Origin: Sphingomonas echinoides ATCC 14820 | GTDB taxonomy: Bacteria; Pseudomonadota; Alphaproteobacteria; Sphingomonadales; Sphingomonadaceae | Assembly (NCBI RefSeq): GCF_000241465.1 | Contig: NZ_JH584235.1 | Location: forward strand, 356,305 to 420,304 | Direction of reading: 5' to 3' | DNA length: 64,000 bases | Part shown: piece after piece, positions 1-9,139 of the stretch | Numbering within the stretch: the first letter of the stretch is position 1 | How the letters are laid out: every line of letters begins with the position of its first letter | Position numbers and translations under genes: made by a program | Notes under the pieces: generated by a model | Databases searched by the model: none | What the model was told of the DNA's origin: nothing | Seen by the model: the letters and a program-made list of their open reading frames with translations, nothing else

Positions 1-99
1 CATCTGCCCCAAAGCACCGCCGCGCGGGTCGCCTGCATTGAAGAATGCGACTGCTTCTGGCACGGAATGCCATCACGAAGGCTTACGGAGTGCCGCTGC

Positions 100-630
100 A
101 TGGAACAACCCAACACGCTGGTGGCACTCACAGCGGAAATCGCCGCAAATTTCGTCGCGAATAATCACGTTGGCGCGAGTGAGATCGGCGAAGCGATTGC
201 AGCGATCCACAGCGCACTTGCCAGGCTGAGTGTCGCTTCGGCCGAGCAGCCGGTAACGGAGGCTTTCACGCCTGCGGTGTCGATCCGCAAAAGCCTTGCG
301 GACCCGGCCAAGATCATCTCAATGATCGACGGCAAGCCCTACAGTGTGCTCAAGCGCCATCTGACGACGCACGGGCTAACCCCTGCGGAATATCGCACGC
401 GCTATCATCTGCCTGCCGACTATCCGATGACCGCGCCTGCGTATTCGCAAGCGCGCAAGGCGATGGCGTTGAATCTTGGTTTGGGCCGGAAAAGCACTGC
501 ACGGCCCAAGCTCGGCGTGGTGACGCCTCACAGCGACGCAGCTTCGCCCGTGACGAAAGCACCGCGCAAGCCGCGCGCCCTCAGCAGTAAAGCCACAGCG
601 GCAAAGGTGTCCCCGGAGTCGAAGGGATAG
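100..630 (+). CDS. MucR/Ros-family transcriptional regulator with a degenerate zinc finger
   Basis: Predicted 176-residue DNA-binding regulator of the MucR/Ros family. The N-terminal half has the usual helical segment (LTAEIAANFVANNHV) and an acidic/proline stretch. The C-terminal half carries the family core KRHLTTHG followed by LTPAEYRTRYHLPADYPM. In family members a Cys-x2-Cys or Cys-x2-Asp element precedes this core as part of a zinc site; here the segment reads ISMIDGKPY with no cysteine. The tail after residue about 135 is basic and rich in Lys, Ala and Pro. The ATG at 100 is preferred over one at 67 because GGAG lies 9 nt upstream and the shorter protein matches family length. Targets are unknown; it is carried on the element. 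Confidence 0.8.
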   Translation: MEQPNTLVALTAEIAANFVANNHVGASEIGEAIAAIHSALARLSVASAEQPVTEAFTPAVSIRKSLADPAKIISMIDGKPYSVLKRHLTTHGLTPAEYRTRYHLPADYPMTAPAYSQARKAMALNLGLGRKSTARPKLGVVTPHSDAASPVTKAPRKPRALSSKATAAKVSPESKG

Positions 631-847
631 GAAGACCGGCCTGCTGATCGCTCAAGATTGCCAGCGGCAAAGCGACCAACCTGCCGGAAGACGCGATCAT
701 GGGGGTGCTACGGGCCGGGCGCACCTGATTCCCACGCCCGCTTTGGGCCGAATTCACAAACGAGGAGCGCCAGCGGCGCTTTGTGATTTCGGCAACGCCA
801 GCGTCAATGCATCGGCCATCGAACTCGACGGCTGACCCGATGCGCCG

Positions 848-994
848 CTAGCGTTTGGTACGGGACGGCTTCACGGGCTGCTTCGCCTTGATCGACTGTA
901 CGGCTTTTGCCGTCGCTTCCTGCTTGTCGATCTCGGGTGTGCATGGCATCCCATCCGCCGATGCGAACGCCGCAGAAATTTCGGTGATCGTCAT
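848..994 (-). CDS. Small 48-residue hypothetical protein coupled to the upstream gene
   Basis: An ATG at 994 overlaps the stop codon of the upstream gene by ATGA and opens a 48-codon frame ending in TAG at 848. The product begins MTITEISAAFASADG and ends in a very basic tail (KPSRTKR). I recognise no family. The overlap is the main reason to take it seriously, because the same coupling is used by many real gene pairs in this window. It would be co-transcribed with the 282-residue gene. It could also be a chance frame. Confidence 0.4.
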   Translation of the reverse strand: MTITEISAAFASADGMPCTPEIDKQEATAKAVQSIKAKQPVKPSRTKR

Positions 995-1839
995 GCTGGT
1001 TTAATTGTGCCGTCTTCGTCGAGATATTCGTTCAAGCCGGGTTCCCGGTAATGGTCGGGAGGTGTGTCTAACACCGAAGGCGGCGACGGGCGAAGCGGGT
1101 CCAGGCGATCAGCTTGATCGTAGGCCCAAGCGATCCACTCGGCGTTGTCATCCAGTGTGCTCGCACGGGTAGCCGATGCTGTGAATGCCGCCAAATACGC
1201 GCGGATGACTCTGGCCTTCTGCCAGCCTTCGGCCTCTCCGACCAACTCGTTTACGGCCTCGCGTTCATATGCGATCGCATCGCGAAGTTCTGAACGCATC
1301 CGTGCGAACTCAGCGGTTTTGCGATCACTCTCTTCCCAAGCGGCCCGAGTGGCAATGCGCGTGGCGGCTTTGGTGCGCAGGTCGATCATAATCTTATTAA
1401 GGCGCTTTTCGAGCGGCCTAAGCGGACTGTCCCTCCACGACTTCCGCCCATAATCTGCATCGCTTTCCAGCAACAGATAGGTGACGCGCGTTCCGCGCTC
1501 AACAAGGCGTAGCGGAAGAGATTCCTTGTTCACGAAAACGGAAATGACCCCGACGGAGTCGTCGGAATTGCTTCGCAATTCGAAACCTCGCGCCTCGCAC
1601 GCTTTGACCAGCGCATCCACGAGACGCAAGGCGCGTGCTTTGTTCCGTTCACTCACGTGAACGCTGAAGCGGCCGACAGGCGGAAACAGCGATGGCATCG
1701 TATTGGATGCTTGCTTTAGCGGCCAGCCGATTGCCGCTGCAGTGCATTGGGTGATTGGATGGGGCTCATCCAACTCCATTGGGACAACGATTGGATGGGA
1801 TTTCTCGTATGCTTCCCAGGCTGGATTGTTCGATTTCAT
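991..1839 (-). CDS. Hypothetical island protein with coiled-coil C-terminal half
   Basis: Predicted 282-residue protein of unknown function. The middle resembles a family I know from genomic islands, with a segment like RFSVHVSERNKARALRLVDALVKACEARG split across about residues 55-85. A charged helical region (residues about 160-235, many Glu, Arg and Ala) and a closing WAYDQADRLDPL motif follow. Longer members of that family carry an N-terminal helix-turn-helix-like part that is absent here, so this may be a shortened copy. The ATG at 1839 is preferred because the protein becomes family-like just after it. The frame stays open to 2001, which would place a start almost against the tRNA gene at 2010. 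Function is not inferred. Confidence 0.55.
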   Translation of the reverse strand: MKSNNPAWEAYEKSHPIVVPMELDEPHPITQCTAAAIGWPLKQASNTMPSLFPPVGRFSVHVSERNKARALRLVDALVKACEARGFELRSNSDDSVGVISVFVNKESLPLRLVERGTRVTYLLLESDADYGRKSWRDSPLRPLEKRLNKIMIDLRTKAATRIATRAAWEESDRKTAEFARMRSELRDAIAYEREAVNELVGEAEGWQKARVIRAYLAAFTASATRASTLDDNAEWIAWAYDQADRLDPLRPSPPSVLDTPPDHYREPGLNEYLDEDGTIKPA

Positions 1840-2009
1840 GGACGACCTATTGCGCGCCGTGCGACGCGGATGGGTTATCGGCGATGGCCGCGCCCTGTTC
1901 AGTTCGCTGACGGCCACCATGCTGCCGGTGCTGGCAGCATTTCGCGGGAAGAGCGCTAGCAGGTTCCCGCAGCGCGCTGCCCTTGCGCCAAACGTGTTCA
2001 CTTCATGGC

Positions 2010-2325
2010 TGGTGCGGGCGGGGGGACTCGAACCCCCACAGGCCTTGCGGCCCTACGGATTTTCTTACCAGCTACGGCTTTCGCCGCCGCCCGATGGGCG
2101 TTTGTGGTCTGGACTATCCCTTCACCGTACCTCGTCGGGGCGAGGGGTAGGTGCTGCCCGTCTAGTCTCTACACCTTCCCGGTAGCGAGGTGCCGCCGGG
2201 CTTGGCTCGGGATTGCCATTTCACAGGGTTCCCCGAATTTGAGCAGTTCTACAGCGTGGGTTTCCCCACGAGCACTCAAGTCATTTGTCTAAGTCCGGTG
2301 CGTCTACCAATTTCGCCACGCCCGC
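2010..2325 (-). tRNA. tRNA-Leu(UAA) split by a group I intron
   Basis: The gene reads on the minus strand. The 5' exon (2325-2291) has acceptor GCGGGCG, the leucine D-arm (GCGAAATTGGTAGACGC) and the anticodon-stem start ending CCGGACTT. The 3' exon (2063-2010) starts AAAATCCG and continues through a GGCC-GCAA-GGCC variable arm, a T-arm with TTCGAGT, the acceptor partner CGCCCGC and an encoded ACCA end. Joined, the anticodon loop reads CTTAAAA, giving anticodon UAA. The acceptor strands pair perfectly with each other. One blemish is a C-U mismatch at the outer anticodon-stem pair (27-43). The splice point lies between the first and second anticodon bases. Confidence 0.9.
2064..2290 (-). ncRNA. 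Group I intron in tRNA-Leu(UAA), IC3-like, 227 nt, no ORF
   Basis: The intron interrupts the anticodon after U34, the position known for cyanobacterial and plastid trnL(UAA) introns. The last intron base is G (2064), as group I introns require. The guide GAGT (2277-2274) pairs with the exon end ACTT and leaves the expected U-G wobble at the splice site. Core strands match the trnL intron pattern: a Q-like GGCAATCCCGAGCCAAG, an R-like GGTGTAGAGACTAG and an S-like GGATAGTCC. GACTA (2167-2163) and TAGTC (2116-2112) form P7. It has no room for a homing endonuclease, so it would rely on its own ribozyme activity. Confidence 0.88.
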
Positions 2326-2398
2326 ACAGCCGAGCGTAGCTATAGTCGGGCAAAAATTCTGCGCCAAGGAAGATATGCGATCTGTCCGCAGGCTTCGA

Positions 2399-3619
2399 TC
2401 AATTCGCCGGTTTGTCACGCTTTTGAGAGGCGGTCAGGGGCCGCCGAACGTTGATCGCCTCTGCATCGAGCATGTTTTTGATGTGGGAGGCGTAGAATTT
2501 TTCGATCATTTCGACGCTGGTGCGGCAGTTTTTCGCGATCTGGTAGATGTCGGCCCCCTCAAGGAGGCGGAGCGAAATGTAGGTGTGTCTCAAGCTGTAG
2601 GTCGTGCGGGCGTTGCCCTCGCGATCCTTTTTCAAGCCAAGCTCATCAAGGATCGCATTGAAAAGCTCGCGTTGGATCGTTGGGAAAAGCAGGTCGGTCG
2701 GGCCGAGATTGTGGCGTTTCTTCATGCGGGTGAAAGGCATGACAGCGCCCGGCATGGATTTTGCCCAACCCGTTCCACGCTTGCCGCGTACCGCGATGTG
2801 CAGGATGCGTTCCTTGGCCGGGCCATCGGAGACGATCTCGATGTCACGCACTTCTAGCCGCCGTGTCTCGTCGGGCCGAAGGCCCGTGTTCACCTGAAAG
2901 AGAACATAGTCGTGCAGATCTTCGCACGCGGTGCGCCAGCGCTCTTTTTTCGGGTTCTTCGCCCGCGCGCTCGTCGCCTTGTAAAGTTTCTTGTACTCGG
3001 CGAGTGAGAACCATGCGCGATGAGAGATTTTGCTGGAGCCCCGATACGGGGCCGACATGTCTGGCATAAAGGGAAGCCAACCATGTCGATTGGCAAACTT
3101 TAGCGTCTGACGAAGGCAGACCAGTTCCTGGTGAAGGGTGCTCCGAGACGGCGTCTTGCCATTTCGTTCTTTGGGCTTTTTGGGTTCGCCAGGCTTTGGC
3201 TTGTCGAAACCACCATTTTTGATTCGGTCGATTCGGTAGTCCTGAATCATGCCGGAAGTGATCTCGCTTATCACTTTGTCGCCAAAGAAGGGGATCAGGT
3301 AGAGGTTGAGTCGACGGCGGTGCCCGTCAACGTAGACCTTGCTGCGCTCGCCCTGCGTCACGATCTCGAATTCATTGATGAAGCGTTCGGCTACCTGCTT
3401 GAAGGTCTTGCCTGCTTTTATCTCACCACGAGCGGCCTTGCCCTTCAGAGTGAGGAACCAGTCCTCGGCCACGTCTTTCGCGAGTGCCAAACTTTCCTGC
3501 TTGGTGCTGTGCCGGAACTGCTTTTTTCCGATGCTTGCGCGGCACTGCCAGTAGCTGCTGCGCGGGCGACGAAAGAGCTGCACCTTGCCGCCAAGAATCT
3601 CGTGGACTGCCTCAGCCAT
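2399..3619 (-). CDS. Tyrosine-type site-specific integrase
   Basis: A 406-residue phage-type integrase. Residues about 1-60 form an Arm/DUF4102-like region with basic residues, about 70-200 a SAM-like core-binding domain, and about 215-395 the catalytic domain. Catalytic landmarks are Arg in NTGLRPDE, Lys in RGKRGTGW, SLRHTY (box II, with Tyr at the usual first-His position) and the nucleophile Tyr in EKFYASH. The ATG at 3619 has a GAGAGGG element about 10 nt upstream. The gene lies 100 bp from the split tRNA-Leu fragment, which implicates tRNA-Leu(UAA) as its target. It is full length and intact, so the element may still be able to move. Confidence 0.93.
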   Translation of the reverse strand: MAEAVHEILGGKVQLFRRPRSSYWQCRASIGKKQFRHSTKQESLALAKDVAEDWFLTLKGKAARGEIKAGKTFKQVAERFINEFEIVTQGERSKVYVDGHRRRLNLYLIPFFGDKVISEITSGMIQDYRIDRIKNGGFDKPKPGEPKKPKERNGKTPSRSTLHQELVCLRQTLKFANRHGWLPFMPDMSAPYRGSSKISHRAWFSLAEYKKLYKATSARAKNPKKERWRTACEDLHDYVLFQVNTGLRPDETRRLEVRDIEIVSDGPAKERILHIAVRGKRGTGWAKSMPGAVMPFTRMKKRHNLGPTDLLFPTIQRELFNAILDELGLKKDREGNARTTYSLRHTYISLRLLEGADIYQIAKNCRTSVEMIEKFYASHIKNMLDAEAINVRRPLTASQKRDKPAN

Positions 3620-3636
3620 GGGTAGCGCCCTCTCAC

Positions 3637-3668
3637 TGCGCTAAAATGCGCTAGGGATGTGCTAGCGC
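3637..3668. promoter_or_regulatory. Repeated GCGCTA boxes upstream of the integrase
   Basis: Two direct TGCGCTA copies (3637-3643 and 3647-3653) are followed by an inverted CTAGCGC (3662-3668). The second copy and the inverted one form a perfect 7-bp palindrome with a 7-nt gap. The boxes lie 18-50 nt before the integrase start, inside its leader. They could be an operator for the integrase gene or arm-type sites for the recombinase. A weak sigma70-like pair (TTGATT, 16 nt, TACTTT) lies further upstream. Function is inferred from position only. Confidence 0.4.
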
Positions 3669-3721
3669 TCCATGGGCCTTAAAGTACTATAAACACAAGA
3701 AAAATCAAGCCTATTTTATGC

Positions 3722-3760
3722 TTTTAAGTCCCGTGCGTCTACCAATTTCGCCACGTCCGC
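3722..3760 (-). pseudogene. 5' half of a split, intronless tRNA-Leu(UAA); probable attachment-site junction
   Basis: Read on the minus strand from 3760, this is acceptor GCGGACG, a D-arm identical to the complete gene at 2325, stem CGGGA and the whole anticodon loop CTTAAAA. Homology stops exactly after the loop, where stem TCCCG should follow but GCATAAAATAGG is found. Over the first 35 nt it differs from the intron-bearing copy at two positions only. Because the loop is uninterrupted, the original gene had no intron. It cannot make a tRNA as it stands. The break point marks the likely crossover site of the integrase. Confidence 0.8.
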
Positions 3761-3805: not shown

Positions 3806-4084
3806 TTAGACGTTGAGACGCGCGCGCATTTCCTTGCCAGGCTTGAAATACGGGACGCGCTTCGCGCCGACATCGACCAATTCGCCAGTGCGGGGATTGC
3901 GTCCAGTGCGCGCATCGCGCGCGCGGGTCGAAAAGGCCCCGAAGCCGCGGAGCTCAACACGTCCGCCCAGTGCCAGTCGCTTCGTGATCTCGTCGAAAAA
4001 GGTGGTCACCAGCGCCTCGATGTCGCGCATCGACAGATCGGGATTTTCGGCAGCCAGTGTCTGTACCAGTTCTGATCGGATCAT
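3806..4084 (-). CDS. ihfB: Integration host factor subunit beta
   Basis: A 92-residue DNA-bending protein that pairs with IHF-alpha to shape promoters, origins and recombination sites. It starts [11 protein letters not shown] and contains the HU/IHF DNA-binding arm with the NPRTGE turn and the closing [11 protein letters not shown]. The frame is open for 33 codons further upstream, but the ATG at 4084 gives the family length and has GGGGGA 9 nt upstream. It follows rpsA on the same strand, the common alphaproteobacterial arrangement. IHF is also a usual helper of tyrosine integrases such as the one next door, though any link here is inference. Confidence 0.95.
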
Positions 4085-4246
4085 CGTGTCGTTTCCCCCT
4101 GCCGTCGTGGCCATGCCCTTGCGGTACAAAAAGGCCGCTTCGGTCATGTTTTTTATCGCAATTCTGTCATTTACGATAGCCACGAAACGACGGGGAAAGA
4201 CAGGGCAGGGCTACTCCATTTGGATGAATAACCCCGCCCTTTACGC

Positions 4247-5974
4247 TTACTTCTTGCTGTCGGCACCCTGCGCCTTGAGCGCTGCACCGAGGATGTCGCC
4301 CAGCGACGCGCCCGAGTCGGACGAGCCATATTGTGCAACGGCCTGCTTCTCTTCGGAGATCTGCATCGCCTTGATCGAGAAGGTCGGCTTCTTCGAACGG
4401 TCGAAACCGGTGACCATGGCGTCGAACTTCTGACCGGTCTGGAACCGCTCCGGACGCTGCTCGTCGCGATCGCGGCCGAGGTCGGTGCGCTTGATGAAGC
4501 CGGTCGCGCCGTCGTCGCCGACCTGCACTTCGAGACCCGCATCGCGGACTTCGAGCACGGTGACCGTGACGATGGCATTCTTGTTGAGGCCCGACGAAGC
4601 GTTGCCGCCTGCCGCTGCCGCACCGGCTGCCGGAGCACCACGCTCAAGCTGCTTCATGCCCAGCGAAATGCGCTCCTTCTCGGCATCGATGTCGAGCACG
4701 ATCGCCTGAACGACCTCGCCCTTGCGATGCAGGTTGAGCGCATCCTCGCCCGACACGCCCCAGGCGATGTCCGACATGTGGACCATGCCGTCGACATCGT
4801 TGTCGAGGCCGATGAACAGACCGAATTCGGTCGCGTTCTTGACTTCGCCTTCAACGGTCGACCCGATCGGATGCGCTTCGGCGAAGGCTTCCCACGGGTT
4901 GCTGATCGCCTGCTTGAGGCCGAGCGAGATGCGGCGCTTGTCGGGATCGACCTCGATGACCACGACGTCGACTTCTTGGCTCGTCGACACGATCTTGCCG
5001 GGATGGACGTTCTTCTTGGTCCACGACATTTCGGACACGTGGACCAGGCCTTCGATGCCCGGCTCGAGCTCGACGAACGCACCATATTCGGTGATGTTCG
5101 TGACGCGGCCCGACAGCTTCGCGCCGACCGGATACTTGGCGGCGGCACCTTCCCACGGATCGCTCTCGAGCTGCTTCATGCCGAGCGAAATGCGCTGCGT
5201 GTCCTTATTGATGCGGATGATCTGGACGCGGACGGTATCGCCGATGTTCAGCACTTCCGACGGATGACCGACGCGCTTGTAGCTGAGGTCGGTGACGTGC
5301 AGCAGGCCGTCAATGCCGCCCAGGTCGACGAACGCACCGTAATCGGTGATGTTCTTGACGACGCCGTCGATGATCTGGCCTTCAGCGAGGCTGAGGATCA
5401 GGCCGGAACGCTGCTCGGCGCGGGTTTCTTCGAGGATCGCACGACGCGACACGACGATGTTGCCGCGCTTGCGGTCCATCTTGAGGATCTGGAACGGCTG
5501 CGGGATGTCCATCAGCGGGGTGACGTCGCGCACGGGGCGGATGTCGACCTGCGAACCCGGCAGGAAGGCGACGGCACCGTTGAGGTCGACCGTGAAGCCA
5601 CCCTTGACGCGGCCGAAGATGACGCCCTCGACGCGGGCAGTCTTGGCGAATTCGGTTTCGAGCGTGTCCCATGCGGCTTCGCGGCGGGCGCGGTCGCGCG
5701 ACAGCATCGCTTCGCCGTGCACGTTCTCGACGCGGTCGACGAACACTTCAACTTCGTCACCGACCTTCAGGTCTGCCTTCTGGCCCGGCATCGCGAATTC
5801 GCGCAGCGGAACGCGGCCTTCCGACTTCAAGCCGACGTCGATGACGGCGAGGTCGTTTTCAATCGCGGTGACGGTGCCCTTGACGACGCGGCCTTCGAAG
5901 CTGTCGGCACCGCCGAGAGTCATTTCGAGAAGGGCGGCGAAATCGTCGCGGGTTGGGTTTGCCTGAGTGGCCAT
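4247..5974 (-). CDS. rpsA: 30S ribosomal protein S1
   Basis: A 575-residue ribosomal protein that brings mRNA to the 30S subunit. Six S1/OB repeats are visible at about residues 25-90, 110-175, 195-265, 280-350, 368-440 and 458-525. Repeats 3-5 carry the classic YGAFV, LHVTDLSY and VHVSEMSW type motifs. The ATG at 5974 starts MATQANPTRDDF, the usual alphaproteobacterial N-terminus. An open frame continues upstream for about 130 codons but is low-complexity and unlike S1. An AGGA lies 12 nt before the start. An Ala/Gly linker before repeat 6 is longer than usual. Confidence 0.96.
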   Translation of the reverse strand: MATQANPTRDDFAALLEMTLGGADSFEGRVVKGTVTAIENDLAVIDVGLKSEGRVPLREFAMPGQKADLKVGDEVEVFVDRVENVHGEAMLSRDRARREAAWDTLETEFAKTARVEGVIFGRVKGGFTVDLNGAVAFLPGSQVDIRPVRDVTPLMDIPQPFQILKMDRKRGNIVVSRRAILEETRAEQRSGLILSLAEGQIIDGVVKNITDYGAFVDLGGIDGLLHVTDLSYKRVGHPSEVLNIGDTVRVQIIRINKDTQRISLGMKQLESDPWEGAAAKYPVGAKLSGRVTNITEYGAFVELEPGIEGLVHVSEMSWTKKNVHPGKIVSTSQEVDVVVIEVDPDKRRISLGLKQAISNPWEAFAEAHPIGSTVEGEVKNATEFGLFIGLDNDVDGMVHMSDIAWGVSGEDALNLHRKGEVVQAIVLDIDAEKERISLGMKQLERGAPAAGAAAAGGNASSGLNKNAIVTVTVLEVRDAGLEVQVGDDGATGFIKRTDLGRDRDEQRPERFQTGQKFDAMVTGFDRSKKPTFSIKAMQISEEKQAVAQYGSSDSGASLGDILGAALKAQGADSKK

Positions 5975-6275
5975 AAAGTCTTGTATTCCTAAATCATGTT
6001 CCGGCCAGCCGGTTGTCTCCGGCGGTCTTGGCCTATGGTGTCGGGCTGGCCGTATGCGCAACCCGACATCCGTCGATCGGAGTGGATGGAGGGGCAAGTC
6101 GCGCGAATGCGAAAAGGGCGCGAGAGGACATGCCTGTCGCGCCAGCCTCCGTGAACACCGCTCACCGGACCGCAGCCCTATAGCGGGATATGCGGCAGCG
6201 GGCAAGCCGTAGGAGGGCGTTGAAGCCACGGTGCCGGTGGCTATACCAGATAAGGAAAGATCATAGGGGGGCGAT
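5975..6275. other. Intergenic region between rpsA and the beta-lactamase remnant
   Basis: This 301-nt gap holds the leader and promoter of rpsA on the minus strand and the upstream region of the divergent beta-lactamase-like gene. I see no further gene, no tRNA and no strong hairpin. No promoter could be assigned with confidence by eye. Confidence 0.5.
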
Positions 6276-6893
6276 ATGCGGAAGTACCGATCGGCGATGG
6301 GAATGAGCGCGGTATTGATGATCGGCGGCAGCGCCGCCGCGCAAGCCGTCGACGACCCGCTGACCCGCCCGATCGCCACCGATTATGCCGCGCGCTGGCT
6401 GGCCCCACAGCCGCCCAAGCGGATCTATGGCAACACCTATCTGGTCGGCTTCCGCAAGATGAACGTCGCGCTGATCGATACCATCCGGCTGGGCAAAGTC
6501 GGCGTCATTGCGGTGGCCACGCCCGGCCATACCGCCGGAAGCACGAGCTGGCGGTGGCGCTCGTGCGAGGCCGGACGCTGTTTGAACATGGTGTTCGCCT
6601 CCAGCATCAACCCGGTCTCGGTCGACGGCTACCGCTTTTCCGATCCGGCGCACCGCGCGATCGTCGCCACCTTCCGGCACACGATTGCGCGGGTCGGGGC
6701 ATTGCCGTGCGACATCCTGTTTACGGCGCATCCCGACAATTCCGGCGGCGACGTGACGTTTGCGCGGTTCGAGCAGTACCCGACGCCCAATCCGTTTATC
6801 GATCCGGCCGCCTGTCGAAAACTGAGTGTCAGCTATACGGGGATCGTCGACGCCCGGCTGGCCAAGGAAGCGCAGCCTGCCGTCGTTCAATGA
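6276..6893 (+). pseudogene. Class B3 metallo-beta-lactamase-like gene with an internal in-frame deletion
   Basis: The 205-residue product starts with a signal peptide ending near SAAAQA. The C-terminal half matches subclass B3 enzymes: TPGHTAGSTSW, RSCEAGRCLNMVFASS, LPCDILFTAHPDNSG. The N-terminal part also fits (IYGNTYLVGFR). The roughly 110 residues expected between them, which carry the HxHxDH zinc ligands, are missing; the sequence passes from FRKMNVALID straight to TIRLGKVGVIA around residues 60-71. The two later zinc histidines (PGH and AHP) remain. The enzyme should not bind two zincs or hydrolyse beta-lactams. It sits between cmk and rpsA, which normally adjoin, so it interrupts a conserved cluster. 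Confidence 0.75.
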
Positions 6894-6924
6894 GCACGAG
6901 CGACCACCCTTCCGCCTGGGCCGA

Positions 6925-7548
6925 TTACGCCTGGAGCCTAGCCTCCACAATCGCGATCGCGCGCTGCACGCTGGCTTCGATCGAGAGGAAGCTGGTGTCG
7001 AGCAACGCCGCATCGTTGGCGGGAACCAGCGGGGCGTTGGAGCGGGTGGAATCGCGTAAGTCGCGCGCGCGAATGTCGGCCAGCACCTTGTCGAGGCTGA
7101 TCGTCGAGCCGTGCGCGCGCAGCTCGGCATGGCGGCGCTTCGCGCGGATATTGGGCGTTGCACGGATGAACAGCTTCGCGTCGGCATCAGGTGCAATCAC
7201 CGTGCCGATGTCGCGGCCATCGAGCACTGCACCACCGGGTTGATAGGCGAAGCGTTTCTGCCGGTGAAACAACGCCGCACGCACCAGCGGATGCGCCGAC
7301 ACCACCGAGGCGAGCGAACCGATCGCGTCGCTGCGCAGGATCGGGTCGTCGAGCAGCGCCTCGTCAAAATCGCATGCGGCGACCGCGTCTGCCTCGATCG
7401 CGCCGTCCAGTTCGAGCCGCGCAACGTTCGCGGCGACGGCGCGATACAGCAGCCCCGTGTCAAGATGCGGCAGGCCATAATGCTGGGCGAGCGCCCGCGC
7501 GATCGTGCCCTTGCCGGAGGCGGCGGGACCATCGACAGCAATAATCAT
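6925..7548 (-). CDS. cmk: Cytidylate kinase
   Basis: A 207-residue (d)CMP kinase that transfers phosphate from ATP to CMP or dCMP. The P-loop is DGPAASGKGT at residues about 5-14. The CMP-binding motifs HLDTGLLYRA and LDGRDIGTVI, and the lid-region Arg pair in RARDLRDSTRS, are present. The ATG at 7548 overlaps the stop codon of the upstream membrane-protein gene (ATGA), so translation is probably coupled. This start gives the standard family length although the frame is open further upstream. It belongs to the aroA-cmk-rpsA-ihfB cluster. Confidence 0.96.
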   Translation of the reverse strand: MIIAVDGPAASGKGTIARALAQHYGLPHLDTGLLYRAVAANVARLELDGAIEADAVAACDFDEALLDDPILRSDAIGSLASVVSAHPLVRAALFHRQKRFAYQPGGAVLDGRDIGTVIAPDADAKLFIRATPNIRAKRRHAELRAHGSTISLDKVLADIRARDLRDSTRSNAPLVPANDAALLDTSFLSIEASVQRAIAIVEARLQA

Positions 7549-7793
7549 CGGCGAACACTCAAAGTACGTACCAATCCAAGGAGCGCGATCACCGCCCAGG
7601 CCAATTCGAGGGCGAGCGCGGGGAGGTTGTAGTTGACCATCAACGATATCGCCAGCAGCGATGCGCCAAGAAAATTCAGACCGTTCGACAAAAGGTTGGG
7701 CGCGGCATTTCGCAGCGTTTGATACGCGAAGCCGGCGAGAATGGTCAGGGCACCCACAAAGCCGATGATATCGGCCGCATGCGAATCGATCAC
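7545..7793 (-). CDS. Small integral membrane protein between aroA and cmk (CBU_0592-like)
   Basis: An 82-residue protein with three hydrophobic segments (about residues 8-24, 35-52 and 58-76). The pattern, including a FAYQTLRNAAPN-like stretch and a LNFLGASLLAISL helix, resembles the small CBU_0592-type membrane family; the assignment is from memory. The GTG at 7793 overlaps the aroA stop by GTGA, and its own stop overlaps the cmk start by ATGA. The gene is thus locked into the aroA-cmk translation unit. Function is unknown. Confidence 0.75.
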   Translation of the reverse strand: MIDSHAADIIGFVGALTILAGFAYQTLRNAAPNLLSNGLNFLGASLLAISLMVNYNLPALALELAWAVIALLGLVRTLSVRR

Positions 7794-9139
7794 CGGGCGT
7801 CGCCCTGCAATTGCCGGATCTGCGAGAAGAACGCGGGGTAACTGGTCGCGACCGGGCTCGCATCGTCGAGCGTCAGCGCGGCACCGGCATTGGTTTTGCG
7901 GCAATGGAGCGCCGCCACCGCCATGCTCATCGCAATACGGTGATCGAGCAAGGTCGCCACCGTGCCCCCGCCGGGAAGCGGATCGCCGCCGCTGCCGTCG
8001 ATGATCATGCCGTCCTCGACCTCTTCGACGCGCGCGCCGATCACGCCGAGCGCGGCGGCCATCGCCGCGATCCGGTCCGATTCCTTGACACGCAATTCGT
8101 CAGCCCCGCGTGCGATCGTCCGACCGGAGGCGTAGGCGGCGGCGACGAACAGCACAGGATATTCATCGATCATGCTCGGGGCGAGATCGGGCGGGATTTC
8201 GATGCCGGTGAGTGCGGCATGACGCACGCGCAAATCGGCGACGGGCTCGCCACCAACCTCGCGCCGGTCGAGTTCCTCGATGCTGGCACCCATCATGCGG
8301 AGCGCCGTGAAGAGACCCGCGCGGGTGGGGTTGAGGCCGACATTTTCGACGACGATGTCCGACCCTGGCACGATCGTCGCCGCCACCACCAGGAAGGCGG
8401 CGGAGGAGGGGTCCCCGGGCACGACGATCTCCTGAGGAAGCAGTTCAGCCTCCCCAGTGATCGCGATGATCCGACCTTGCGGTGATGGCTCGACCGTCAC
8501 CTTCGCGCCGAAGCCGCGCAGCATCCGCTCGCTATGGTCGCGGGTCGCCACCGGTTCGATCACGCGGGTGATCCCCGGCGTGTTGAGCCCGGCCAGCAAC
8601 ACCGCCGACTTCACTTGCGCCGAGGCGACGGGCAGGGTGTAGGTGATTGGAATGGCGGGGCAGATCCCGCGCAGCATCAGCGGCAACCGTCCGCCGGGGC
8701 TCGACGTGAACTCCGCGCCCATTTGCGACAGCGGCGTGATCACGCGGCCCATCGGACGCTTCGACAAGGAGGCATCGCCAATAAAGGTGGCGATAATCGG
8801 ATGGCTGGCGACCAGCCCCATCAGCAGCCGCGTCGAAGTTCCGGAATTGCCCATGTCGAGCGCGTTCGCCGGTTGCAGCAAGCCGCCCACTCCGACGCCG
8901 TCGATCGTCCACACGCCGTCATCACCCCGGACGATGCTCGCGCCCATTGCGCGCAAGGCGGCGGCGGTGGCGAGGACGTCCTCGCCCTCCAGCAGGCCGG
9001 TGACCCGGCTGGTGCCGACCGCGAGCGCCGAAAACATCAGCGAGCGGTGGCTGATCGATTTGTCGCCCGGCACGCGGACGCGGCCGGTGAGCGGACCGGA
9101 AGGTTGGATTTCAAGCGGAGCGGGTGTAGGATGTGCCAT
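7790..9139 (-). CDS. aroA: 3-phosphoshikimate 1-carboxyvinyltransferase (EPSP synthase), class II type
   Basis: A 449-residue enzyme of the shikimate pathway, joining phosphoenolpyruvate to shikimate-3-phosphate. Motifs include PGDKSISHRS near residue 24, GDASLSKRPMGRV, SAQVKSAVLLAGLNTPG, RDHSE, NPTR and ELRVKESDR. SAQxK, RDHSE and NPTR resemble the class II (CP4-like) enzymes. At the residue that is Ala100 in the glyphosate-tolerant CP4 enzyme, this protein has Gly (GNSGTSTRL). That predicts ordinary inhibitor sensitivity, as inference. It heads the cluster with the small membrane gene and cmk, each overlapping the next by 4 nt. Confidence 0.96.
   Translation of the reverse strand: MAHPTPAPLEIQPSGPLTGRVRVPGDKSISHRSLMFSALAVGTSRVTGLLEGEDVLATAAALRAMGASIVRGDDGVWTIDGVGVGGLLQPANALDMGNSGTSTRLLMGLVASHPIIATFIGDASLSKRPMGRVITPLSQMGAEFTSSPGGRLPLMLRGICPAIPITYTLPVASAQVKSAVLLAGLNTPGITRVIEPVATRDHSERMLRGFGAKVTVEPSPQGRIIAITGEAELLPQEIVVPGDPSSAAFLVVAATIVPGSDIVVENVGLNPTRAGLFTALRMMGASIEELDRREVGGEPVADLRVRHAALTGIEIPPDLAPSMIDEYPVLFVAAAYASGRTIARGADELRVKESDRIAAMAAALGVIGARVEEVEDGMIIDGSGGDPLPGGGTVATLLDHRIAMSMAVAALHCRKTNAGAALTLDDASPVATSYPAFFSQIRQLQGDAR

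Follow-up and report, generated by a model that had tools for sequence, protein, structure and literature searches.

An integrative element of Sphingomonas echinoides that splits a tRNA-Leu(UAA) gene and carries an intron-bearing copy, with a possible role of the intron as a shield against the element's own integrase

The stretch of DNA analysed here, called the window, comprises 64,000 nt of Sphingomonas echinoides ATCC 14820 (GCF_000241465.1, NZ_JH584235.1; G000:C1:356305-420304) and contains one end of an integrative element inserted in a tRNA-Leu(UAA) gene. The order on the minus strand is ihfB (4183-3806), an orphan 5' half of a tRNA-Leu(UAA) gene (3760-3722), an integrase gene (3619-2399) and an intron-bearing tRNA-Leu(UAA) gene (2325-2010). 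The features of the locus are the following, att standing for attachment site:

1 to 3734, unstranded: portion of the element inside the window; its remainder runs left to about G000:C1 346887
2010 to 2325, minus strand: replacement tRNA-Leu(UAA) gene with encoded CCA and a group I intron inside (ARAGORN with introns, c[2010,2325]; exon limits from relatives)
2010 to 2063, minus strand: exon 2, beginning AAAATCC and ending CCA (comparison with relatives)
2064 to 2290, minus strand: group I intron of 227 nt between U34 and A35, which breaks the 9-bp att core (RF00028, 46 bits)
2291 to 2325, minus strand: exon 1, ending in GGACTT (U34) (comparison with relatives)
2339 to 2367, minus strand: candidate promoter of the replacement tRNA, TTGGCG-17-TATAGC (box pair recurring before related copies)
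2399 to 3619, minus strand: tyrosine integrase of 406 amino acids (PHROG_1 E 2.6e-32; Pfam Phage_integrase E 2e-4, below the model cut-off)
3722 to 3734, minus strand: 13-bp common core ACGGGACTTAAAA at the integrase-side junction, repeated at the far end beside the 3' half
3722 to 3760, minus strand: 5' half, now orphaned, of the native tRNA-Leu(UAA) without intron; with the 3' half added it reads as the intact gene in genome G224
3806 to 4183, minus strand: ihfB-like DNA-binding protein gene in the host flank (Pfam PF00216), which in this genus usually adjoins tRNA-Leu(UAA)

A preliminary description of this DNA had placed the integrase between an intact intron-bearing tRNA-Leu(UAA) and the 5' half of an intronless one, an assignment that is confirmed. 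The missing 3' half, which it expected to the left of the window, is found there at G000:C1:346840-346899 on the minus strand (a genome pattern search first matched 346854-346889). The 5' half at 3760-3722 reads GCGGACG...ACGGGACTTAAAA and is followed by non-tRNA sequence, while the far-end region reads ACGGGACTTAAAATCCC...CGTCCGCACCA and holds the same 13 bp; the core-to-core span is ~13.14 kb. Both junction copies are orphan halves whose acceptor strands pair at 7/7 positions, and neither junction gives a whole tRNA. Genome G224 of the same genus has beside ihfB an uninterrupted tRNA-Leu(UAA) of 86 nt that is identical to the two window halves joined, which rules out a chance resemblance of the 5' half to a tRNA. 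Relatives free of the element were anticipated to have an intronless tRNA-Leu(UAA) beside ihfB, and this holds for 25 of the 29 other same-genus ihfB loci examined; two of the others have an intron-bearing gene and two have none within 1.5 kb. At the level of the sequence, the native tRNA-Leu(UAA) gene is split by the element, with both halves, the empty site and the replacement present. Since the same arrangement recurs in other taxa, its geometry is not due to chance.

No second intact tRNA-Leu(UAA) gene, which would have argued against a replacement, was found among the 43 Rfam tRNAs of the genome, all nine of at least 82 nt having been typed. A pattern search of the genome for intronless tRNA-Leu(CAA/UAA) gave a single match, which is CAA, and none for UAA; RF00028 matches nowhere in the genome besides the window intron. 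Ordinary tRNA searches miss both window copies, the 5' half as well as the intron-bearing gene. Because the remaining tRNA-Leu genes read CAA, TAG, CAG and GAG, the intron copy is apparently the sole tRNA for UUA codons, and the cell would depend on it.

ARAGORN finds the window tRNA only with its intron option and prints Ser(AGA), the splice site being ~2 nt off. The junction U/A...G/A (slashes for the splice points), as in relatives that ARAGORN reads as Leu(UAA), gives window exons with CUUAAAA, that is, Leu(UAA). Several related introns score 50-56 bits with RF00028. In an alignment of 24 introns the U-G pair at the 5' splice site is found in 24/24 and a G closes the intron; the fold is conserved, 23 of the 65 predicted pairs showing compensated changes, a pattern that selection on splicing would be expected to leave. 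Folded alone, the window intron is not notable against shuffles (z -1.5). It is predicted to be spliced. The position after U34 is that of the group I intron of cyanobacterial tRNA-Leu(UAA), and a gammaproteobacterial case of a group I intron in tRNA-Leu(UAA) was reportedly described by Vepritskiy et al. in 2002. The element intron resembles these bacterial introns in residing in the same tRNA and belonging to the same intron class; to our knowledge they have not been described as cargo of an integrase element. A TTGNNN-16..18-TATNNN box pair precedes 25/27 element-borne intron tRNAs versus 9/17 of those without an integrase nearby. A sigma-70 consensus scan called no promoter at 2339..2367, where the boxes are too weak for it; the recurrence of the box pair suggests that the replacement tRNA probably has its own promoter.

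The integrase features the motifs RPDE, LRHTY and IEKFYAS, the last with its tyrosine, at about residues 246, 342 and 372, which we take to be of the catalytic type, and the protein is predicted to be active. Its family was studied in the best 80 of 174 integrase relatives from named genomes which, together with the window, make 81 loci. A replacement tRNA-Leu is present in 61 of them: 24 carry a UAA gene with intron, in line with the proposal that related integrases be linked to intron-bearing tRNA-Leu genes, 36 an intronless CAA gene and one (L057) an intronless UAA gene. The target core lies upstream of the integrase gene (int) in 64/81 loci, 61 of these cores being within a tRNA-Leu 5' half, and in 48/58 loci scored for distance no more than about 150 bp separate the int stop codon from the replacement downstream of it. 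Target and replacement are of the same isotype in 51/52 script-scored pairs (22 UAA and 29 CAA), L018 being discordant. The 5' half of L018 resembles tRNA-Leu(CAA) yet reads CTTAAAA after position 31, as if base 34 came from the attachment site of the element (attP); this could result from a crossover before 34 or from an assembly error. Fourteen of the 81 loci have neither an upstream core nor a replacement tRNA-Leu; in several of them int is instead preceded by a tRNA-Met, Arg or Trp.

The order int followed by tRNA is found also in Caulobacteraceae, Nitrobacteraceae, Acidobacteriota and a metagenome-assembled genome (MAG) of Gammaproteobacteria. Among the 196 genomes of the order set, 13 have the integrase (E at most 1e-60) and eight an RF00028 match. 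On an integrase tree of 91 rows the state of UAA with intron takes eight changes, at least seven of them forced by well-supported branches, which shows that the target type was switched repeatedly; the UAA and CAA cores are one base apart. A search of the integrase against 50,697 phage records gave no match and one locus matched in IMG/VR, so that the identification of the element as a known phage was set aside.

Members of the family occur at other sites too. In L072, L074, L086, L088, L091, L092, L107 and L110-L114 a related integrase lies just downstream of an intact tRNA-Met(CAU) and no tRNA-Leu replacement was seen, while tRNA-Arg(ACG) is upstream of int in L053, L056 and L106 and tRNA-Trp in L093. 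In these loci one branch of the integrase family seems to use its targets in the ordinary manner. L038, L043 and L057, from MAGs of Acidobacteria and Phycisphaerae, have att-like cores upstream of int that no tRNA half surrounds; these may be forms that are not integrated, or other sites.

Both halves of the target were sought in 22 elements (the window, L055 and 20 further genomes), of which 15 were closed: the window, L055, L015, L039, L045, L044, L042, L030, L075, L020, L023, L077, L034, L027 and L060 (its 3' half read by eye). Acceptor pairing is 7/7 in fourteen closed elements and 6/7 in L027, and the fourteen elements measured by script span 3.8 to 90 kb. The smallest, L055 (about 5230-9095, in the gammaproteobacterial MAG), is a 3.8-kb element with integrase, intron tRNA-Leu(UAA), a DUF6908/DUF1249 open reading frame (ORF) and both halves. 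In the seven elements that did not close, the 3' match is on another contig (L049, L040, L073, L031 and L051, where it is preceded by a partial 5' arm), at contig ends (L036), or, as an orphan half, on the same contig but about 700 kb off and to the wrong side of its 5' partner, as a rearrangement might leave it (L079). The core common to both junctions measures 9 to 29 bp in the 15 closed elements and contains GACTYAAAA in each, corresponding to tRNA positions 30-38 in the anticodon arm; the search pattern demanded ACTYAAAA, and the real findings are only the G and that no longer stretch is common to all. The minimal common stretch is GACTTAAAA overall and AGACTCAAAA among CAA elements.

The carried tRNAs differ from this target in two ways. 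The preliminary description held that the replacement no longer contains an uninterrupted target and this is borne out in DNA, the full 9-mer GACTTAAAA being intact in 0/27 element-borne intron copies; the window copy keeps six contiguous core bases of nine. In all 27 copies the intron moves the 3' anticodon stem by about 200 bp or more. None of the 21 UAA-intron pairs differs from the target at positions 30-32, and L041 and L067 are identical to it from 27 to 33. Most CAA pairs (32/35) differ from the target at 30-32, mostly by C32 to T, those of L063, L069 and L159 being unchanged. Random draws from the target triplets gave a mean of 10.3/35 changed CAA pairs and reached 32 in 0/20,000 draws. 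In this comparison L019, L022, L038, L043, L057 and L159 were entered by hand and L027, part of whose tRNA reads N, was omitted. The own-element 9-mer is absent from 34/36 intronless replacements, in a tally over the 81 loci with L019, L022, L032, L038, L043, L057 and L159 entered by hand and the position-30 base of L032 assumed. The core of the only intronless UAA replacement, L057, is altered (G30 to C).

Resident intronless tRNA-Leu genes of the order set were counted by eye in 150 rows among the matches listed. Within these, 78 classed as tRNA-Leu(UAA) have no core change seen and are all C32, and tRNA-Leu(CAA) genes vary between C32 and T32. UAA targets might be unable to change stem or loop, and hence follow another route, although the G30 change of L057 shows that change is possible. 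A Fisher test in the 150 rows among the matches listed gave 10/12 versus 2/19 (p 8e-5), with kinship ignored and G130, whose T32 copy lies beside an integrase, left out. In families f5 and f8 of the order the resident tRNA-Leu(CAA) is T32 among the matches listed; these residents might reflect a natural loss of the target or a very old replacement. A universal role of T32 as immunity mutation in CAA elements was rejected as too strong, T32 being resident elsewhere and present in both target and replacement of L159.

These features can be accommodated in the following scheme. The tyrosine integrase would place the element within the anticodon arm of the host's tRNA-Leu(UAA) gene, leaving two useless half-genes, and the complete tRNA-Leu(UAA) carried next to the integrase would take over from the broken, apparently single-copy gene. 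Once the element is a free circle, int would lie between attP and the carried tRNA, the two forming a direct repeat; if the carried tRNA had a working site, the integrase might delete its own gene or re-enter the replacement. A group I intron that interrupts the site in DNA and leaves the RNA by splicing would yield a shielded copy that still gives rise to tRNA, and the sister CAA elements would reach the same end mostly via base changes at positions 30-32. A decaying element could not drop the tRNA that has become indispensable, and would in this way seed intron-bearing tRNA-Leu(UAA) genes. This reading as a whole, in which the intron would shield the carried copy from the element's own integrase while its RNA is spliced, is probable. 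A broader proposal is about as likely as not: that the intron is a DNA-level shield, one of two solutions of the family (intron for UAA, altered anticodon stem or loop for CAA), and that decaying elements also seed intron-bearing tRNA-Leu(UAA) genes.

Several observations weigh against this scheme. The full-length match of RF00028 to the window intron (46 bits, E 4.9e-10) is below the curated cut-off of 50 bits. Seven contiguous bases of the nine-base core are left in 16/27 element-borne intron copies, because the intron often starts with AA, and eight in two (L034 and L035); in such copies protection would come mainly from the displaced 3' anticodon stem. L170 (G506), an intron tRNA-Leu(UAA) without integrase nearby, has the full GACTTAAAA in DNA, its intron opening with a run of A. 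L063 and L069 (2/36 intronless replacements), as well as L159 from the order set, retain their own core and a changed core is therefore not strictly required. The rows compared are related, and at 80% integrase identity the CAA pairs reduce to 19 clusters changed versus 3 unchanged. T32, the change seen most often in CAA replacements, is what resident genes of two other families of the order usually have, among the matches listed, so that foreign descent alone could explain part of the CAA pattern. The preliminary description had counted intron tRNAs at this locus without an integrase as evidence against its reading, and they do exist: five of the 61 genus-set genomes, as well as G125 and G065, have an intron tRNA-Leu(UAA) next to ihfB and no intact related integrase in the flank covered. 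In a survey of the class, RF00028 gave 34 matches in 31/385 genomes; of 29 loci examined with flanks of up to 1.5 kb, 15 are tRNA-Leu(UAA), with no related integrase in the flank in 11/15 and an adjoining integrase in 4/15.

Part of these data would fit an intron that is a passenger without protective role, the ancestral donor tRNA copy having happened to hold the group I intron that is common in tRNA-Leu(UAA). The introns of the elements resemble one another closely, copies without integrase nearby exist, seven or eight of nine core bases are contiguous in 18/27 element copies, and the CAA differences at 30-32 could mirror foreign origin. Such a passenger is at odds with the presence of the intron in 24/25 UAA replacements, compared to any RF00028 match in 6/61 genus-set and 8/196 order-set genomes, with the recurrence of the UAA-intron state across the integrase tree, and with the altered core of the sole intronless UAA replacement. 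This explanation deserves consideration but is rather unlikely.

The integrase-free genes could also indicate that the intron tRNA belongs to the host in some members of the genus, an integrase element having merely landed beside it, as relatives have an intron tRNA-Leu(UAA) at the ihfB locus without an intact integrase beside it. This is made very improbable by the tRNA lying within the bounds of both orphan halves, with the integrase on one side and the far att core on the other, by the repetition of the int-tRNA order in the other groups named above, and by an integrase fragment beside the intron tRNA of G212. The six genus-set genomes with RF00028 include the present one, and the other five have their match beside ihfB by coordinates. 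The integrase was searched genome-wide in the order set; for G212, G220, G227 and G231 the integrase status refers to the flank. In G212 a piece of the integrase, residues 365-397 (76% identity), survives between ihfB and the intron tRNA, and no other intron lies closer to that of the window than the one of G212. Because G212 retains this carboxyl-terminal fragment, the integrase-free ihfB cases are here taken to be remnants of decayed elements that could not shed the tRNA, as shown only by G212, one of seven (1/7). In the intron tree 6/39 inner branches are well supported and integrase-free introns are not separated from element introns; being poorly resolved, the tree cannot prove that the former descend from elements.

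A classical tDNA island restored by an element-carried fragment, to which the tyrosine integrase and the anticodon-arm target would be typical (Islander, PMC4383910, in the part of the article available), has practically no likelihood left and is ruled out at this locus by the two orphan halves, which pair together, join to the intact gene of the relative and leave no junction with a complete tRNA.

Other group I introns were seen as well. L115 and L116 (G075 and G072) have a different, AT-rich lineage of tRNA-Leu(UAA) intron, in family f8, that lies far from the element introns on the tree. In the class survey, L173, L174 and L184 (G408, G277 and G505) have group I introns in tRNA-Arg(CCU) according to ARAGORN, with no related integrase within 1.5 kb.

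The visible cargo of the element (L011, G000:C1 about 346900-360030) codes for an ArdA antirestriction protein, a Fic/DUF4172 protein, a MucR-type regulator and several unknown ORFs; no conjugation or virion genes were recognised among the element ORFs searched. Two of its ORFs lie within the window:

67 to 630, plus strand: ROS/MucR-type regulator (Pfam PF05443, E 2.2e-37)
991 to 2001, minus strand: ORF of 336 amino acids without family match

The closest known system is tRNA-dependent lysogeny, demonstrated experimentally for mycobacteriophages whose cores measure about 10 bp (Guerrero-Bustamante and Hatfull 2024, PMC10865867); Gaia has an 8-bp core in tRNA-Leu(CAA), as given in a table of that paper. 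The preliminary description knew of no account of the arrangement; the breaking of the target together with the supply of a whole tRNA was already described there in 2024, while an intron in such a tRNA was not found in open-licence PubMed Central. The two systems have in common the tyrosine integrase, the short common core, the host tRNA that is split and not rebuilt, and the element tRNA of the same isotype (PMC10865867, in the parts available). They differ in that the former belongs to actinobacteriophages and its dependence was established by experiment, whereas the elements described here are mostly from Alphaproteobacteria, have no match among phage records and are known from sequence. 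In contrast to the system of PMC10865867, as far as the available parts of that paper show, here the tRNA adjoins int in most elements, the tRNA for UAA targets bears an intron and remnants are found. The word intron appears only in the reference list of PMC10865867, and shielding of the carried tRNA is not discussed in the parts of the paper covered. In the case of Sinorhizobium prophages and islands, integration inactivates tRNA-Leu(UAG), whose place is taken by a foreign isoacceptor that the prophage carries (PMC11476347, from the part available). An alphaproteobacterial tRNA-Leu is broken and replaced there as here; the isoacceptor concerned differs, and the word intron is absent from the available main text of PMC11476347. 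The Islander tDNA islands share the tyrosine integrase at an anticodon subsite but, as described in the available part of PMC4383910, restore the target with a carried fragment. A further trait shared with tRNA-dependent lysogeny is that the host has no other copy of the broken tRNA, as far as genome searches see.

The archaeal tRNA intron at position 24/25 is not a group I intron. A study of 2012, citing Randau and Soll, put forward that integration is blocked where a tRNA gene holds an intron, and that an element bringing such an intron with it may thereby be guarded from further invasion (PMC3293823). Unlike in the elements studied here, that case concerns a tRNA intron at 24/25 in one natural population, with the intron within attP and no separate whole tRNA, and the passages of PMC3293823 available contain no family-wide test. 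Open-licence PubMed Central yielded no account of a replacement tRNA of this kind with a group I intron; within that literature the intron as a shield appears undescribed for bacteria, a similar idea being in print for archaea (PMC3293823, as far as its passages available show).

The elements described here would extend tRNA-dependent integration from actinobacteriophages to a broad, mostly alphaproteobacterial group of elements, whose measured members span 3.8 to 90 kb. A self-splicing intron would gain a plausible selective use that acts in DNA and not in RNA, and the idea on archaeal tRNA introns becomes testable on plasmids. The elements may also provide a vehicle for the scattered group I introns of proteobacterial tRNA-Leu(UAA), as the element can be lost and the tRNA cannot. 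If true, seeding by decaying elements would help to account for the patchy distribution of these introns among Proteobacteria with no need for a homing enzyme.

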